A DNA stretch of 64,000 nucleotides from Roseimicrobium gellanilyticum (GTDB lineage Bacteria > Verrucomicrobiota > Verrucomicrobiia > Verrucomicrobiales > Verrucomicrobiaceae): NCBI RefSeq assembly GCF_003315205.1, contig NZ_QNRR01000003.1:558001-622000 (forward strand), written 5' to 3'. How positions within the stretch are numbered: position 1 is the first letter of the stretch; every line of letters begins with the position of its first letter. The notes beneath the pieces are model-generated. The model saw nothing but the letters and a program-made list of their open reading frames with translations, made no database searches and was not told the origin of the DNA. Positions 5,169-11,584 of this stretch are shown here, one piece after another. The translations under genes were made by a program, and so were the position numbers.

Positions 5169-7175
5169 CTACGCCTCGCTCATCAATTGCCGACGCATCG
5201 CAGCCATGAAATCGGTGGCGTCGTCCTTGTCCAGATCCTCATTCATGTAAGCGGCGTGGTCGAACTCCTCCACGTACTGGCGATCCAGTTCCTGAAGGAA
5301 GCTGCTGGCCATGCAGGTCTGCTTCTGGCCCCACTTCACACGGTAACGGCAGTGGCTGATGGTCAGCTTGCGCATGGCACGGGTGATGCCCACGTAGAAG
5401 AGGCGGCGCTCCTCGTCCTTGCGATTCTCATCAATGGACCGCTTGTGTGGAAGGATGCCCTCCTCCATGCCGGGGAGCCACACATAGGGGAACTCCAGCC
5501 CCTTGGAGGCGTGCAGGGTGATCAAGCACACACCCGTTTTCTTGGTGATGTCCTCCTTCTCCTCACGATCGTCGTTGAGGCTCGTCTCATCGAGGAACCC
5601 CTGCAGACCTTCGCCCTTCGCGCGCTCGTCATAGCCGGTGAGTGACTGCATGAGCATCTTCACACCGTTCTTCCACGTCTCAAAATCTTCCGGCGTCTTT
5701 GCCTGCTTCTCCAGGTACTCCATGTACCGGATCTCCGCGATAAACTTTTCCGCCAGCGGTTGCAGCGGTTGCAGCGGTTGGTGGGCCTGGCCGCGGAAGC
5801 TTTCCATGGTCTCGACGAAGCCATTGATCACCACCTGCAGGCGCTGCGAGATGTTCTCCAAAAACTCCGGATCCTTCAGCGCGGCGAAGACACTCGTCCG
5901 CTTCTTGATGGAATGCTCGCGAGCCAACTCCGCCGTAGCAGCACCGATGCCGCGCGTGGGCGTATTTAGAATGCGCTGCAAGCTCACGTCATCGTCCGGA
6001 TTCGCCAGCACCGTGAGGTAGGCCAGAATATCCTTCACCTCACGACGATCAAAGAAGCTGCGGGCACCGATGATGCGGTAGGGAATCTTGCGTTTGCGGA
6101 ATTCACCTTCCAGCACGCGGCTCTGCTCATTCGTGCGGAAGAGCACCGCCATGTCATCCCACTTCTCACCCTTGGTCTGCGCGTCCGTCATCTCATCAGC
6201 AATGAGCGCGGCTTCTTCCTTTTCATCTTCCGTCACCACGAGACGAACGGGATCCTGGCCGGCATTGCGGCTCCAGAGGGACTTGTCGCGACGCCCTACG
6301 TTGTTGCGAATGAGGCTGTTTGCCGTGTGCAGAATGGGCGTGGTACTGCGGTAGTTCTCCTCCAGCTTGATGATCTTCGGATCAGGGAAGAAGGACTCGT
6401 ACTCGTTGATGTTGGTGATATCCGCGCCACGCCATCCGTAGATACTCTGGTCATCATCACCCACCACGCAGATGTTGTGGGGAGGCGGCACCAGCGCACG
6501 CAGGAGACGCATCTGCAGCGTGTTGGTGTCCTGGAATTCATCCACCATCACGTAGCGCAGTTTGCCCTGCACGGCCTCGCGCACTTCCGGATGATCCTCC
6601 AGCAGCTTCACGCCATTGAGCAGAAGGTCATCGAAGTCCATCGCGTTCATCGCACGCAACTCGTCGGTATAGAGCTGCTGCAAGGCGCCATCCACCGTCT
6701 GCATGGGATCACCCAGGCTCTCACCGGCATTCTTCGCCTTGCTGATGCGGCTGAGCGCCATGCTGGGGTCGTAGTTCTCCTCCTTCACCAGCAGGCGCGC
6801 GAGAATCTTCTTCACCAGGCTGATCTGTTCACCCTGGCTGTAGATGGTGAAATTGTTCTTGTAACCCAGGGCTTCAGCGTGCTGCCGGAGCAAGCGCATG
6901 CAGAAGGCATGGAATGTGCCCAGCGTCAGCTTCTTCGCCTTTTCCTTGCCGAGGATTTCGGTGATGCGCTCTCGCATTTCACTCGCGGCCTTGTTCGTGA
7001 AGGTCACGGACACGATGTTCTCAGGCGAAATGCCCTGGTCCACCATGTTGGCGATGCGCATGGTAATCACACGCGTTTTGCCGGTGCCAGCCCCGGCGAG
7101 AATCAAGACGGGACCATGAATGGTCTGGACAGCATCACGTTGCTGGAGGTTGAGAAGAGCGAAGGAAAACGACAT
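5169..7175 (-). CDS. UvrD/PcrA/Rep-family ATP-dependent DNA helicase
   Basis: This is a 668-residue superfamily 1A 3'-5' helicase. The motifs are in order: Q motif near the N-terminus (LNLQQRDAV), Walker A (LAGAGTGKTRVIT), motif II (VDEFQDTNTLQ), motif III (GDDDQSIYGWRGAD), motif IV region (LEENYRSTTPIL), motif V (TLHASKGLEFPYVWLPG) and motif VI (YVGITRAMRKL). The family unwinds DNA in repair and replication restart and removes RecA filaments. The length is near that of Rep/PcrA; the C-terminal region ends acidic rather than with a long PcrA tail, so it is left unnamed. It is transcribed alone. Confidence 0.95.
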   Translation of the reverse strand: MSFSFALLNLQQRDAVQTIHGPVLILAGAGTGKTRVITMRIANMVDQGISPENIVSVTFTNKAASEMRERITEILGKEKAKKLTLGTFHAFCMRLLRQHAEALGYKNNFTIYSQGEQISLVKKILARLLVKEENYDPSMALSRISKAKNAGESLGDPMQTVDGALQQLYTDELRAMNAMDFDDLLLNGVKLLEDHPEVREAVQGKLRYVMVDEFQDTNTLQMRLLRALVPPPHNICVVGDDDQSIYGWRGADITNINEYESFFPDPKIIKLEENYRSTTPILHTANSLIRNNVGRRDKSLWSRNAGQDPVRLVVTEDEKEEAALIADEMTDAQTKGEKWDDMAVLFRTNEQSRVLEGEFRKRKIPYRIIGARSFFDRREVKDILAYLTVLANPDDDVSLQRILNTPTRGIGAATAELAREHSIKKRTSVFAALKDPEFLENISQRLQVVINGFVETMESFRGQAHQPLQPLQPLAEKFIAEIRYMEYLEKQAKTPEDFETWKNGVKMLMQSLTGYDERAKGEGLQGFLDETSLNDDREEKEDITKKTGVCLITLHASKGLEFPYVWLPGMEEGILPHKRSIDENRKDEERRLFYVGITRAMRKLTISHCRYRVKWGQKQTCMASSFLQELDRQYVEEFDHAAYMNEDLDKDDATDFMAAMRRQLMSEA

Positions 7176-7364: not shown

Positions 7365-8822
7365 TCAACCCACCGGCAGCCCGCTCTCGCGCCAGTTGTT
7401 CAGCACTTCCGGCAGCAGCAGATGTTCTTCTGCCTGGATGCGGTAGAAGACATCGTCCGCCGTATCACCGATGTGGATCGGCACCTTGGCCTGCGCCAGG
7501 ACTCTTCCACCATCCACTTCTGCATTTACGAGATGCACGGTGCAGCCGGTTTCCACTTCCCCTTCTTCCAACGCCTGCACCCAGGCAGCCTTGCCTTTGA
7601 ACTTGGGAAGCAATGAAGGATGGATGTTCACGATGCGATCCTTGTACCCGGAGAGAAGTGGATCTTTAATCACCCGCATGAAGCCGGTGAGGACCACCAC
7701 CTGCACCTCGTGTGCCTTGAGCTGCTCGTAGATTTCCTCCTGCGCCTCGATCGGAAGCACCCTGGCATTCGGACCGGGATCTACAAACACACGAGACAGG
7801 CCTGACTCACGCGCCTTGGCGAGAAGACGTGAGCCCTCCACATCCGAAATCACCACGGCGATTTCCGCATTCAGGCGGCCGTCATCAATGGCACGCTGGA
7901 TGGCCTCGAAGTTGGTTCCCTGACCACTCCCCAACACGCCAATGCGGAGGGGCAAAACTCTCGGCGAGAGAGGCACCGCGCCCGTCGCCCGGGATTGGAT
8001 GGAGAGCGTCTCCTCCCGAGGTGCAATGGTAGTCGTGATGACTCTGGGAATGCCCTGCGTCACCGTGGCAGGCTTGCGCGGCTCCACCGGCGGAATGCTC
8101 TGGGTATTCGTCTTCCTGATTTCAGAAAGTGGAAGCGGAATGCTCTGTGTGACGACCTTTCCGGGCTCCTGCAAAACGGCGACAGCGGCTGCCGCGGGCT
8201 CGGGAGCCGTTGGCTCAAGCTCGGGGGCAGGAACGGATGCAGCCGCTGGAAGCGGAACTGAAACGGGAACAGGCGCATCATCCGCAGCGGCAGCCACGGG
8301 CGGTGTGTTTTTGGGAGGAGCAGGCACAGGAGCATCCTCACCGGCACGCATGCGCCCGATGGTGTTCGTGGTGGATCTACCCGGCACAAGCGGCAGCAGG
8401 CAGATGGTGGATCCTGCCTTGATGAGAGCTTCGCGCTCACCGGCGTCGAGCGTCTCCAGGGTATAGTCTCCACCCTTGGCATACACATGCGGGCGAATGA
8501 TCTCGATGAGCTTCGTCACGCGGGGATCATCAAAGATCACCACGCCATTCACGCTCTGGAGAGCCATGAGGATTTCCGCGCGATCTTCCTGGTGGTTGAT
8601 CGGCCGTGCCTCCCCCTTCAACGCACGTACCGAGGCGTCAGAATTCAGCGCCACCACCAGGCCATCCCCCAATGCGCGAGCCTGCCTCAGGTAGCGCACA
8701 TGACCGGCATGCAGGAGATCGAAGCATCCGTTGGTGAAGACCAGTTTCCTTCCCTCCGCATCGAGCTGATCTCGAAAGTCGCGGACGGCTTCCGCGGTGG
8801 TGATCCAGGAATCTTGGGACAT
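7365..8822 (-). CDS. fusion: HldE/RfaE2-like cytidylyltransferase-fold domain plus PurN-like glycinamide ribonucleotide formyltransferase
   Basis: This 485-residue protein joins two enzymes. Residues 1-160 are an RfaE domain-II nucleotidyltransferase with TNGCFDLLHAGHV and GRSTTNTI motifs; in its family it adenylylates D-glycero-beta-D-manno-heptose 1-phosphate for LPS core synthesis. Residues 161-290 form a Pro/Ala-rich linker with three TQSIP/TQGIP repeats. Residues 291-485 are a PurN-like domain (GVLGSGQGTNF, NIHPSLLPKF with Asn399 and His401, and VDGG with Asp437), which formylates GAR in purine synthesis with 10-formyl-THF. The frame is open throughout, so this is a true fusion as sequenced. 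An alternative is that the C-terminal part formylates another amine, since sugar formyltransferases share this fold. No hldA or pur genes are adjacent. Confidence 0.85.
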   Translation of the reverse strand: MSQDSWITTAEAVRDFRDQLDAEGRKLVFTNGCFDLLHAGHVRYLRQARALGDGLVVALNSDASVRALKGEARPINHQEDRAEILMALQSVNGVVIFDDPRVTKLIEIIRPHVYAKGGDYTLETLDAGEREALIKAGSTICLLPLVPGRSTTNTIGRMRAGEDAPVPAPPKNTPPVAAAADDAPVPVSVPLPAAASVPAPELEPTAPEPAAAAVAVLQEPGKVVTQSIPLPLSEIRKTNTQSIPPVEPRKPATVTQGIPRVITTTIAPREETLSIQSRATGAVPLSPRVLPLRIGVLGSGQGTNFEAIQRAIDDGRLNAEIAVVISDVEGSRLLAKARESGLSRVFVDPGPNARVLPIEAQEEIYEQLKAHEVQVVVLTGFMRVIKDPLLSGYKDRIVNIHPSLLPKFKGKAAWVQALEEGEVETGCTVHLVNAEVDGGRVLAQAKVPIHIGDTADDVFYRIQAEEHLLLPEVLNNWRESGLPVG

Positions 8823-8940: not shown

Positions 8941-10647
8941 CTAGGCCATCAAACTCGTCCGGCACAGGCCGGCATACAAACCGTTTTTTGCCATGAGTTC
9001 GTCGTGCGTGCCGTGCTCCACGACCGTCCCCTTCTCCAGTACGTAGATGCGGTCGGCGTGCCGTACCGTGCTCAGACGGTGGGCAATCACGAAGCTGGTG
9101 CGGTTCTTCATCAGGGCATCCAGCGCCTGCTGGATCTGCCGTTCGGTCTCGGTATCCACGCTGGCGGTGGCCTCATCCAGCAGCAGAATCCTGGGATTCC
9201 GCAACAGGGCGCGGGCAATGGACACGCGTTGTTTTTCCCCCACACTGAGCTTGATACCGCGCTCACCCACCTTGGTGCCCAGACCGTCCGGCAGGGCTTC
9301 CACGAAGTGTCTGGCGTTCGCGTTCTCCAGCGCCGTCCAGAGTTCCTCGTCAGTGGCCTCACGGCGTCCAATGAGCAGATTCTCCCGCACCGTGCCGTTA
9401 AACAGGAAGCTCTCCTGCGTGACGTAGCCGGTGTTTGCCCGGAGCCAGGCCTTGTTCAGGTCCCGCACCGGCACGCCGTCCAGGTAGATGCAGCCGGAGT
9501 CGTACTCATAAAAACGGGTGAGCAGGTTGATAAGCGTGCTTTTCCCAGCGCCCGTAGGACCCACCAAGGCAATGGTCTGGCCCGGCTGCGCCTCCAGAGA
9601 CACCTCATTCACGGTGGGCACACTCCCATAGCTGAAGTGCACCCGGTCATAGACGATGTGGCCCTCAATGCTGTCGAGCTTCCGGCCGGTGTCATTGTCC
9701 TTTTCCTCCTCCGCATCCAGGATGTCGAACACCCGCTCGCCCGCACTTCGTCCACCCACAAAGAGCTGGTTCAGCGAGTGGATTTGCCCGATAGGTTCAT
9801 AGAACATCCGCAACAGGATGATGAAGGAGAGGATCTCGCCGGCGGAGATTTCACCACGGTACAGCGCAGTCGCACCCACCCAGACCACGAGGATGTAGCC
9901 CAGGTTCGTCATGAAGTTCATGGTTGGCCGGTACACGGACCACACCCGCATGATGTGGAGGGTGGCCCGGCGCAGGGCATCACTCGCCAGGTTGAAGCGA
10001 GTGTGCTCCTCCTTCTCCATGGCATAGGCCTTGATCTGCCGCATGCCCGCCACGTTGTCGTGCAGCAGCGAGTTCATGGCACTGCTGGCTTTGCGCACCT
10101 TGCGAGCCCGCTCTTTGGAGGTCAGCGTGTAGGCGAGTGCTCCGAAGGCGATGAACGGCACCGGTGCGCACGTGGCCCACGCAAGGGTGGTGTTCACGTT
10201 GAACATGTACACCGCCACGATGGCAATCTGCAGAATGGCGATGACTCCCTGCTCAATGCCATCGATGAGCACACGTTCCACCGCGGGAATGTCCTCACTC
10301 ACCGTCGTCATGATGTCGCCGGTGGGCCGGTTGTCGAACCAGCGCAGTGGCAGGCGCTGCAGGCGCTCGTACATCTCACTCCGCAGATCGTAGATGACGA
10401 GCTGCTCGAAGGTGTTGTTGAGCTGGATGCGCATCGCGTTCAGAAAGTCCTGGGCGAAGAACGCACCCAGACCGATCAGAATCGCCGTGCCGATGTGCTC
10501 GCGCGGCACCTGGCCATCCACGATGCGCTGCGCGAGATTCGGAAACACCAGCACCAACACCGTGCCCAGGATCGCGCAGGTAAGCTGCGCCATCGCCATG
10601 CCGGGATACCGGCGGACGTAGCCAAAGACACGGAGGATGACCTTCAT
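8941..10647 (-). CDS. ABC transporter, fused permease/ATPase (MsbA-like exporter)
   Basis: This 568-residue half-transporter has an N-terminal six-helix type 1 exporter domain (residues 1 to about 310) and a C-terminal nucleotide-binding domain. The latter has Walker A (LVGPTGAGKSTLIN), Q-loop (YVTQESFLFNGTVREN), signature (LSVGEKQRVSIA), Walker B (ILLLDEATASVD) and H-loop (VIAHRLSTV). Such homodimers flip lipids, lipid A or drugs across the inner membrane; the substrate is not deducible. It lies downstream of the PfkB kinase gene with a 16-base gap that contains a perfect hairpin, so the two are probably co-transcribed. Confidence 0.93.
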   Translation of the reverse strand: MKVILRVFGYVRRYPGMAMAQLTCAILGTVLVLVFPNLAQRIVDGQVPREHIGTAILIGLGAFFAQDFLNAMRIQLNNTFEQLVIYDLRSEMYERLQRLPLRWFDNRPTGDIMTTVSEDIPAVERVLIDGIEQGVIAILQIAIVAVYMFNVNTTLAWATCAPVPFIAFGALAYTLTSKERARKVRKASSAMNSLLHDNVAGMRQIKAYAMEKEEHTRFNLASDALRRATLHIMRVWSVYRPTMNFMTNLGYILVVWVGATALYRGEISAGEILSFIILLRMFYEPIGQIHSLNQLFVGGRSAGERVFDILDAEEEKDNDTGRKLDSIEGHIVYDRVHFSYGSVPTVNEVSLEAQPGQTIALVGPTGAGKSTLINLLTRFYEYDSGCIYLDGVPVRDLNKAWLRANTGYVTQESFLFNGTVRENLLIGRREATDEELWTALENANARHFVEALPDGLGTKVGERGIKLSVGEKQRVSIARALLRNPRILLLDEATASVDTETERQIQQALDALMKNRTSFVIAHRLSTVRHADRIYVLEKGTVVEHGTHDELMAKNGLYAGLCRTSLMA

Positions 10648-10650
10648 TCA

Positions 10651-10669
10651 GCGTAACAAAGTGTTACGC
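10651..10669. other. perfect hairpin over the pfkB-family stop codon
   Basis: GCGTAAC and GTTACGC form a perfect 7-bp stem with a 5-base loop. The stem contains the TAA stop of the sugar kinase gene and ends four bases before the start codon of the ABC exporter. There is no T-run, so an effect on translation coupling or mRNA ends is more likely than termination. Confidence 0.5.
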
Positions 10670-11584
10670 CGCGAACGCGGTATAGGCCTTCAATTCTTCG
10701 AGTCTCTTTTTCACGTCGGCTCCATCCACGCGCTCCAGGCGCTGGGTGCTGAAGGCCTCACAAGTGAAGCTGGCCACCACGCTGCCGTGGGCCACGGCGA
10801 CCTTGAGTTCCTCAAAGGTGGGCTTGCTCTTGCTCTGCGAGGCGAGCCAGCCGATCATGCCGCCGAGGAAGCTGTCGCCGGCGCCCGTCGGATCAAACAC
10901 GCTGCTCAACGGATAGGCCGAGCAGGCGAAAAACTCCTCCGGACCATTGCCGAAGAGGAAGCTGCCGTGCTCACCACGCTTCACGACCACATACTTGGGC
11001 CCCTTTTGCTGCAGGCGGCGTCCGGCCTCGATCAAGTTGGAGGTGCCGGTGAATTGCTTCGCCTCGCCGTCGTTGATAACCAGGAGGTCGAGCTTCTTCA
11101 TCACGTCATGCAGGCGATCATTGGCGATGTTGATCCAAAGGTCCATCGTGTCTGCCGCGACGAACTCCACTGCCTTGCACTGCTCCAGCGTCTGCAGCTG
11201 GTTGTCCGGGCTCATGTTCCCCAGCATGGCAAACTTCACTCCGGCTGCCTCTGCGGAAAGCTTGGGCTGCCAGTGTTCCAGCACGTTGATGCCCACCTTC
11301 AAGGTGTCGCGGGTGTTCATGTCCGCATGGTACTCGCCGCTCCAGGTGAAGCTCTCGCCGGCGCTGCGCTCCACACTGCCGAGCTCGATGCCCTTGCCGG
11401 TCAGCATGTCGAGGTGAGCCTTCGGGAAGTCCGCGCCCACAATGCCCACCAGGTGCACCGGCTTCACAAACAGGCCGGCCGCCAGCGCAGCATATGCGGC
11501 GGAGCCACCCAGCAGGCCGTCTTCAGAGGCGGTGGGGGTCTTGATGTTGTCGATGCCAATGGAGCCGGAAATGAGTAGGGACAT
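10664..11584 (-). CDS. PfkB-family carbohydrate/nucleoside kinase
   Basis: This 306-residue ribokinase-fold protein has the N-terminal glycine motif (GGSAAYAALAAGLF) and the C-terminal PfkB signature with anion hole and catalytic Asp (DPTGAGDSFLGG). The length is normal. The family phosphorylates sugars, adenosine or related compounds with ATP; the substrate is not clear, though LLISGSIGIDNIKTP at the N-terminus resembles bacterial adenosine-kinase-like members. Transcription probably starts in the 252-bp gap shared with the divergent BON-OmpA gene and may continue into the ABC exporter. Confidence 0.9.
   Translation of the reverse strand: MSLLISGSIGIDNIKTPTASEDGLLGGSAAYAALAAGLFVKPVHLVGIVGADFPKAHLDMLTGKGIELGSVERSAGESFTWSGEYHADMNTRDTLKVGINVLEHWQPKLSAEAAGVKFAMLGNMSPDNQLQTLEQCKAVEFVAADTMDLWINIANDRLHDVMKKLDLLVINDGEAKQFTGTSNLIEAGRRLQQKGPKYVVVKRGEHGSFLFGNGPEEFFACSAYPLSSVFDPTGAGDSFLGGMIGWLASQSKSKPTFEELKVAVAHGSVVASFTCEAFSTQRLERVDGADVKKRLEELKAYTAFAA

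Follow-up and report, generated by a model that had tools for sequence, protein, structure and literature searches.

A single open reading frame in the window (the whole stretch of DNA that was analysed, 64,000 nucleotides from Roseimicrobium gellanilyticum) was found to join an RfaE2/HldC-type nucleotidyltransferase to a PurN-type GAR formyltransferase. We consider this best explained as a bifunctional housekeeping protein whose two halves would work separately and would owe their joining to the head-to-tail position of the rfaE2 and purN genes (probability roughly 0.86). The N-terminal half would be the cell's heptose-1-phosphate adenylyltransferase, in the role of HldC, and the C-terminal half a folate-dependent GAR formyltransferase (PurN), the substrate and activity of each being predicted; no product would be expected to pass between them. 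As for its origin, the best reading is that rfaE2 and purN, presumably coupled in translation, have fused repeatedly, with each half keeping its own job: the stop codon of one and the start codon of the other often overlap, and a small alteration where they meet could be enough to fuse them. We did not find this domain architecture in print: among the open-licence PMC papers listed for such a fusion, and among those listed for Verrucomicrobiota, none described it. The fusion gene, its parts and its two neighbours are as follows.

7365..8822, minus strand: rfaE2(hldC-type)-purN fusion gene, a single open frame of 485 codons plus stop (485 aa)
8343..8822, minus strand: RfaE2/HldC-type nucleotidyltransferase, residues 1-160 (TIGR02199 match; best solved relative 5x9q)
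8169..8342, minus strand: linker part 1, residues 161-218, Pro/Ala-rich and fast-evolving, with indels
7950..8168, minus strand: linker part 2, residues 219-291, conserved, with three TQ(S/G)IP repeats
7368..7949, minus strand: PurN, GAR formyltransferase, residues 292-485 (TIGR00639 match, residues intact)
5169..7175, minus strand: UvrD/PcrA-type helicase gene, which follows purN (PcrA 655 bits, under the cut-off of 911)
8941..10647, minus strand: MsbA-like ABC transporter gene, just upstream of the fusion (TIGR02203 436 bits, under the cut-off of 602)

The two halves and the predicted formyl acceptor

The initial annotation had placed both sets of catalytic motifs in one 485-codon frame, and the frame, both family matches and the catalytic residues bear this out. 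The best family match for the N-terminal half was TIGR02199 (rfaE_dom_II), to which residues 18-159 scored 172.9 bits (E 3.3e-51), not reaching the cut-off of 181.5; the four other fusions scanned gave close and uniform scores of 168.3-176.1 bits, all likewise below it. For this reason the half is named HldC-type rather than HldC. Its top solved relative, aligned over residues 10-160 at E 8.7e-32, was 5x9q, which is titled "putative cytidylyltransferase" in its record and which we take to be Burkholderia pseudomallei HldC. H38-A39-G40-H41, the HxGH motif of the nucleotidyltransferases, was invariant across the five aligned fusions.

Residues 293-476 of the C-terminal half matched TIGR00639 (PurN) with 172.6 bits and passed its cut-off of 150.1, as did three other fusions (183.2, 180.9 and 203.5 bits). 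When this half was compared to solved structures, the 18 best rows were all GAR transformylases, ahead of any other formyltransferase. A structure model of the fusion, which was built from 7 sequences (mean pLDDT 65.5) and served for domain limits and linker disorder, had two folded ends with residues 161-287 disordered between them; pLDDT in the linker block was 25-35 up to residue 280 and 47 for residues 281-290.

In PurN of E. coli we take Asn106 to be a catalytic residue, the G-S/T-N loop to contact the phosphate of GAR and Glu173 to be a further GAR contact. His108 and Asp144 are also described as catalytic, in PMC3261824. The window protein has N399, H401 and D437 at the positions of Asn106, His108 and Asp144, and it keeps the GAR contacts as the G302-T303-N304 loop and E466 (Glu173). 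To look at conservation we picked 67 PurN sequences out of 100 PurN-like frames in the fetched loci, setting aside duplicates of places already covered, loci of other families that have PurN alone, and the Fmt and PurU frames. N13, N106, H108, D144 and E173 (E. coli numbering) were intact in 65 of the 67, fused and unfused, the two exceptions being L060, truncated at the edge of its contig, and the decayed L186 of genome G423. The C-terminal half is therefore PurN by a curated model, with catalytic and GAR-contact residues in place, and is predicted to transfer a formyl group to GAR.

As one of two options, the initial annotation had suggested that the first domain makes an activated sugar to which the second adds a formyl group, so that the envelope would contain a formylated sugar. 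The presence of both halves in one chain and of an MsbA-like gene upstream would fit this, and the PurT which is also encoded in the genome (see below) might, in principle, leave PurN available for a different task. Against this, the fusion passes the PurN equivalog cut-off and falls far below those of the models for ArnA (a long model of two domains; 48.3 bits against 777) and for the dTDP-sugar formyltransferase PRK07579 (29.2 bits against 238). Among the best 60 of 67 matches to solved structures, the alignments of sugar formyltransferases began no earlier than residue 69 in the 201-aa C-terminal query; the GAR loop, at residues 18-20 of that query and conserved with E173 in the 65 sequences, lies outside the aligned part. 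Furthermore, heptose and ADP-heptose have no amine to N-formylate, and the genome encodes no second PurN. On model scores, residues and copy number we reject the C-terminal half as a sugar formyltransferase and regard a formylated envelope sugar as very improbable: the join is unusual and recurrent, yet it does not point to such a product.

Copy number and distribution in relatives

The host genome (7.93 Mb in 32 contigs, 99.7% complete) encodes three Formyl_trans_N proteins: the fusion, Fmt (276.2 bits; cut-off 201.5) and PurU (391.5 bits; cut-off 285.95). Neither the Pfam family nor a protein search revealed a second purN, which the initial annotation had looked to as a sign of a new role; the fusion carries the only purN, which that annotation had itself named as one part of a case against such a role. 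It had also proposed looking for another hldE/rfaE2 and for purT. Three CTP_transf_like proteins were found (the fusion, CoaD and a NadD-NadK frame), with no second rfaE2 by Pfam family or protein search, and when the entire fusion was used as a protein query, with E values up to 10 allowed, the only hits apart from itself were PurU and Fmt and another three at E 0.46-0.98. The NadD-NadK frame (465 aa, L006 1465-2862; G000:C2, ~1,121,500) consists of a NadD-like adenylyltransferase and a NAD kinase; both halves pass Pfam cut-offs and are under NCBIfam cut-offs, and the start codon is putative. It is another adenylyltransferase fusion of this genome, but one within a single pathway.

PurT is present in one copy (612 bits; cut-off 502). 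In E. coli, PurU provides PurT with its formate and deletion of purN or purT singly still allows FGAR to form, according to PMC3261824. GAR formylation is therefore redundant in the host, as in E. coli: the PurN of the fusion is the host's sole PurN, yet not its sole route of GAR formylation. That PurT makes PurN dispensable in principle counts against our preferred reading.

On the heptose side, contig C17 holds an HldA-type kinase match which, at 345.8 bits, just reaches the cut-off of 345, with a GmhA-like match 124 nt away (183.4 bits, below the cut-off of 209.45); a second GmhA-like match, on C2, also scored below that cut-off (196.4 bits), and such matches were below it in all 10 of the 10 genomes searched. 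Since both the N-terminal half and the GmhA-like matches are under their cut-offs, which counts against our preferred reading, heptose 1-phosphate is only the probable sugar substrate. A frame of the Glyco_transf_9 (heptosyltransferase) type lies near fmt (L002 2838-3518; G000:C11) and is either cut by the stretch or uncertain in its start.

We searched 59 genomes of the same family, 56 of which had a match to the fusion at 1e-20 (G400, G401 and G431 had none). Both halves were in one frame in 49 of the 56 and in two adjacent genes in three (G234, G388 and G395); the remaining four comprised G389 and G391, with the halves on different contigs, G438, with PurN near a contig end, and G423, with one frame whose PurN half is decayed. 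Of the 11 genera sampled in the family, eight include one or more fused genomes; genus g5 had none in its single genome, the other two genera were ambiguous, and genus g199 holds both fused and separate forms. A two-domain frame in 49 of 56 genomes is neither chance nor a sequencing artefact. The earlier suggestion of an operon fusion is upheld, by adjacent and often overlapping genes in relatives and by more than one change on the tree described below. A second RfaE2-like match was seen in G429 (L068 ~1504-1971), about 15 kb from the fusion, with no PurN half in the fetched stretch.

Across the phylum, counting fused and separate forms together, a match at 1e-10 to some or all of the protein was obtained in at least 385 of 387 genomes. 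A contig scan with the single protein as query found no relative; a scan with an alignment, whose patterns were drawn solely from the RfaE2 end, did, and of its 564 loci the best 80 were kept. Both domains were present in 12 of these 80, eight in one frame without a stop and four in different frames. Of the eight, L082-L085 coincide with genomes already in the family survey and L086, L087, L088 and L092 are additional. The other 68 of the best 80 had no purN in the fetched flank, indicating that the rfaE2-purN pairing is not general.

The pattern of losses was also informative. No PurT over or near the cut-off was found in four of the 59 genomes (G390, G396, G398 and G400), all of which have PurM over its cut-off; G422 and G402 have partial PurT matches just under the cut-off. 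The fused PurN is intact in G390, G396 and G398, and each single absence of PurT is weak as these genomes are only 86-94% complete. G390 and G396 are the two genomes sampled from one genus, and G393, the congener of G398, has PurT. G400 (85% complete) has neither PurT nor fused PurN. Conversely, G423 has PurT, and its fused frame (L186 679-1893) remains open for ~190 codons over a decayed PurN half which, by alignment, lost the Asn of its GAR loop along with two catalytic residues (Asn and Asp), scored 22.7 bits against a Pfam cut-off of 26.1 and gave no TIGR00639 match at 1e-5. This half is either a pseudoenzyme or a recent decay. Taken together, the pattern is as expected if fused PurN makes FGAR. 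A C-terminal half retained as a structural part with no FGAR-forming activity would have a precedent in G423; in the window protein, however, the catalytic residues are intact and dN/dS of the PurN half is about 0.03 (0.031 against the protein of G387), and we find this explanation highly unlikely.

Junctions, neighbours and linker

A tree of both domains (65 rows, 348 columns; quick method with SH-aLRT only) was built with L082-L084 omitted as duplicates and L085 and L204 being identical. The fused or separate state changed five times, with at least four changes forced by starred branches, although single placements are unsure as several rows have long branches. Four fused loci on the tree lie beyond the family sample.

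At six of the 10 unfused junctions a purN start precedes the stop codon of rfaE2; four of these six overlaps are GTGA or ATGA, two of the four coming from one genus. At the other four junctions the distance between the first purN start found and the rfaE2 stop codon, counted from its first base, is 5, 16, 34 or 184 nt. A uvrD gene follows purN in 10 of 21 compared stretches (L047, L049, L054, the window's own L055 and L082-L087), and the order rfaE2-purN-uvrD occurs at fused and unfused loci alike; the other 11 stretches have no uvrD homologue beside purN, some of them ending at a contig edge. The MsbA-like gene directly adjoins the fusion in one other of the 21, from G066 (L048). This only partly conserved neighbourhood counts against our preferred reading. 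Adjacency, overlaps and neighbour order are what a pair fusing now and then would leave if, as we infer, it is translationally coupled. Next to the MsbA-like gene in the window is a PfkB-family sugar kinase gene (10664-11584, minus strand) which passes no listed NCBIfam cut-off.

It may be that the join itself is functional, with one chain holding heptose activation and purine synthesis, which both draw on pentose-phosphate sugars, in a fixed ratio or place, and that it recurs for this reason. The spread of the fusion over the eight genera and the four outside loci and the conservation of linker residues 219-291 argue for this. However, G234, G388 and G395 keep two genes, the distance between the domain matches varies from 0 to 123 aa and overlapping genes can fuse with no benefit at all, so that we consider a functional join rather unlikely.

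The linker was earlier described as some 130 residues of Pro/Ala with three TQ(S/G)IP repeats. Its length and repeats were confirmed, the latter starting at residues 225, 240 and 255 with an exact spacing of 15; the Pro/Ala-rich part covers only residues 161-218, and residues 219-291 are distinct and conserved. Between the domain matches there are 123 and 109 residues in the window's genus and 0-33 in other fused proteins, apart from L186, whose gap of 109 is an effect of its decayed PurN half. A long disordered linker containing GTG and TTG codons might suggest that the cell cleaves the chain, or starts translation anew within it, to give two separate enzymes, the fusion being a mere expression device. 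In 48 of the 55 fused tree rows, though, the domain matches are 0-15 aa apart, which leaves little room for this, and we judge it quite improbable.

We compared the linker between two Roseimicrobium genomes of two species, the window's and G387. In residues 161-218, 40 of 58 positions aligned and 18 were gapped, with an amino acid identity of 0.53 and dN/dS of 0.32. Residues 219-291 had an identity of 0.93, dS of 1.36, dN of 0.05 and dN/dS of 0.038 (bootstrap 0.010-0.090), beside dN/dS of 0.031 for the PurN half and 0.069 for the RfaE2 half (dS 0.9-1.4 over these three parts); they are thus about as conserved as the catalytic domains, these ratios being rough with two sequences and high dS. 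An antisense gene over the linker (7942-8466, plus strand) is unlikely to be the cause, since the dS and dN of the sense frame indicate constraint on the sense protein. The frame without stops on the antisense strand of the window (offset 1 from the PurN boundary) is interrupted by two of them in the sister species, in which it is another offset that stays open.

The linker had no Pfam match, and a search with residues 219-291 in 7 genomes found only its own copy and that of G387 (next best E 0.2). T-x-x-I occurs five times in this segment of the window species, a count reached by 7/20000 shuffles, and three times in the sister species (568/20000); with I, L or V allowed, 237/20000 and 1240/20000 shuffles reached the respective counts. 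As the repeats are not independent, this excess is a hint only. In Roseimicrobium, residues 219-291 might have become a conserved docking or regulatory element whose TQ(S/G)IP repeats bind a partner, perhaps once the threonine is phosphorylated (pT-x-x-I suits FHA domains), so that heptose activation and purine synthesis would answer to one signal; we hold this to be unlikely. This conserved half of the linker is the one part which our preferred reading leaves unexplained, and together with the recurrence of the fusion it hints at a benefit of joining that goes beyond that reading.

Implications and comparison with known systems

Two enzymes of unrelated pathways have been fused more than once here, apparently by way of adjoining genes, which urges caution against inferring function from fusion alone. 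Annotation in this family should assign both roles to the gene. Relatives that have lost PurT, together with the one whose PurN half has decayed, provide a natural set for complementation, and the genus-specific conserved linker is a concrete target for binding studies.

The C-terminal half resembles the PurN structures 3auf (E 7e-43) and the 1c2t/1gar group, which we take to be E. coli PurN (E 4.4e-34), with catalytic residues kept; the fusion differs from them by its N-terminal RfaE2-type domain. ArnA, WlaRD and other sugar N-formyltransferases have a related formyltransferase domain with far lower scores and no GAR loop in the aligned part (among the best 60 of 67 matches). The N-terminal half aligns with HldC (5x9q) and, unlike HldC, is fused to PurN and scores just under the TIGR02199 cut-off. 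It is also matched by the C-terminal part (323-473 of 475) of the heptose kinase/adenylyltransferase HldE (RfaE), which joins two steps of one pathway, whereas in this genome the kinase has a gene of its own and the fused partner comes from purine synthesis. In Neisseria and Ralstonia, HldA and HldC replace HldE as separate proteins, according to PMC10221265. As in the window protein, PurN is one domain of a longer chain in two known fusions whose partners, unlike here, share its pathway: human GART and the PurN-PurH1 fusion of Halobacteria, the latter as reported in PMC3261824.
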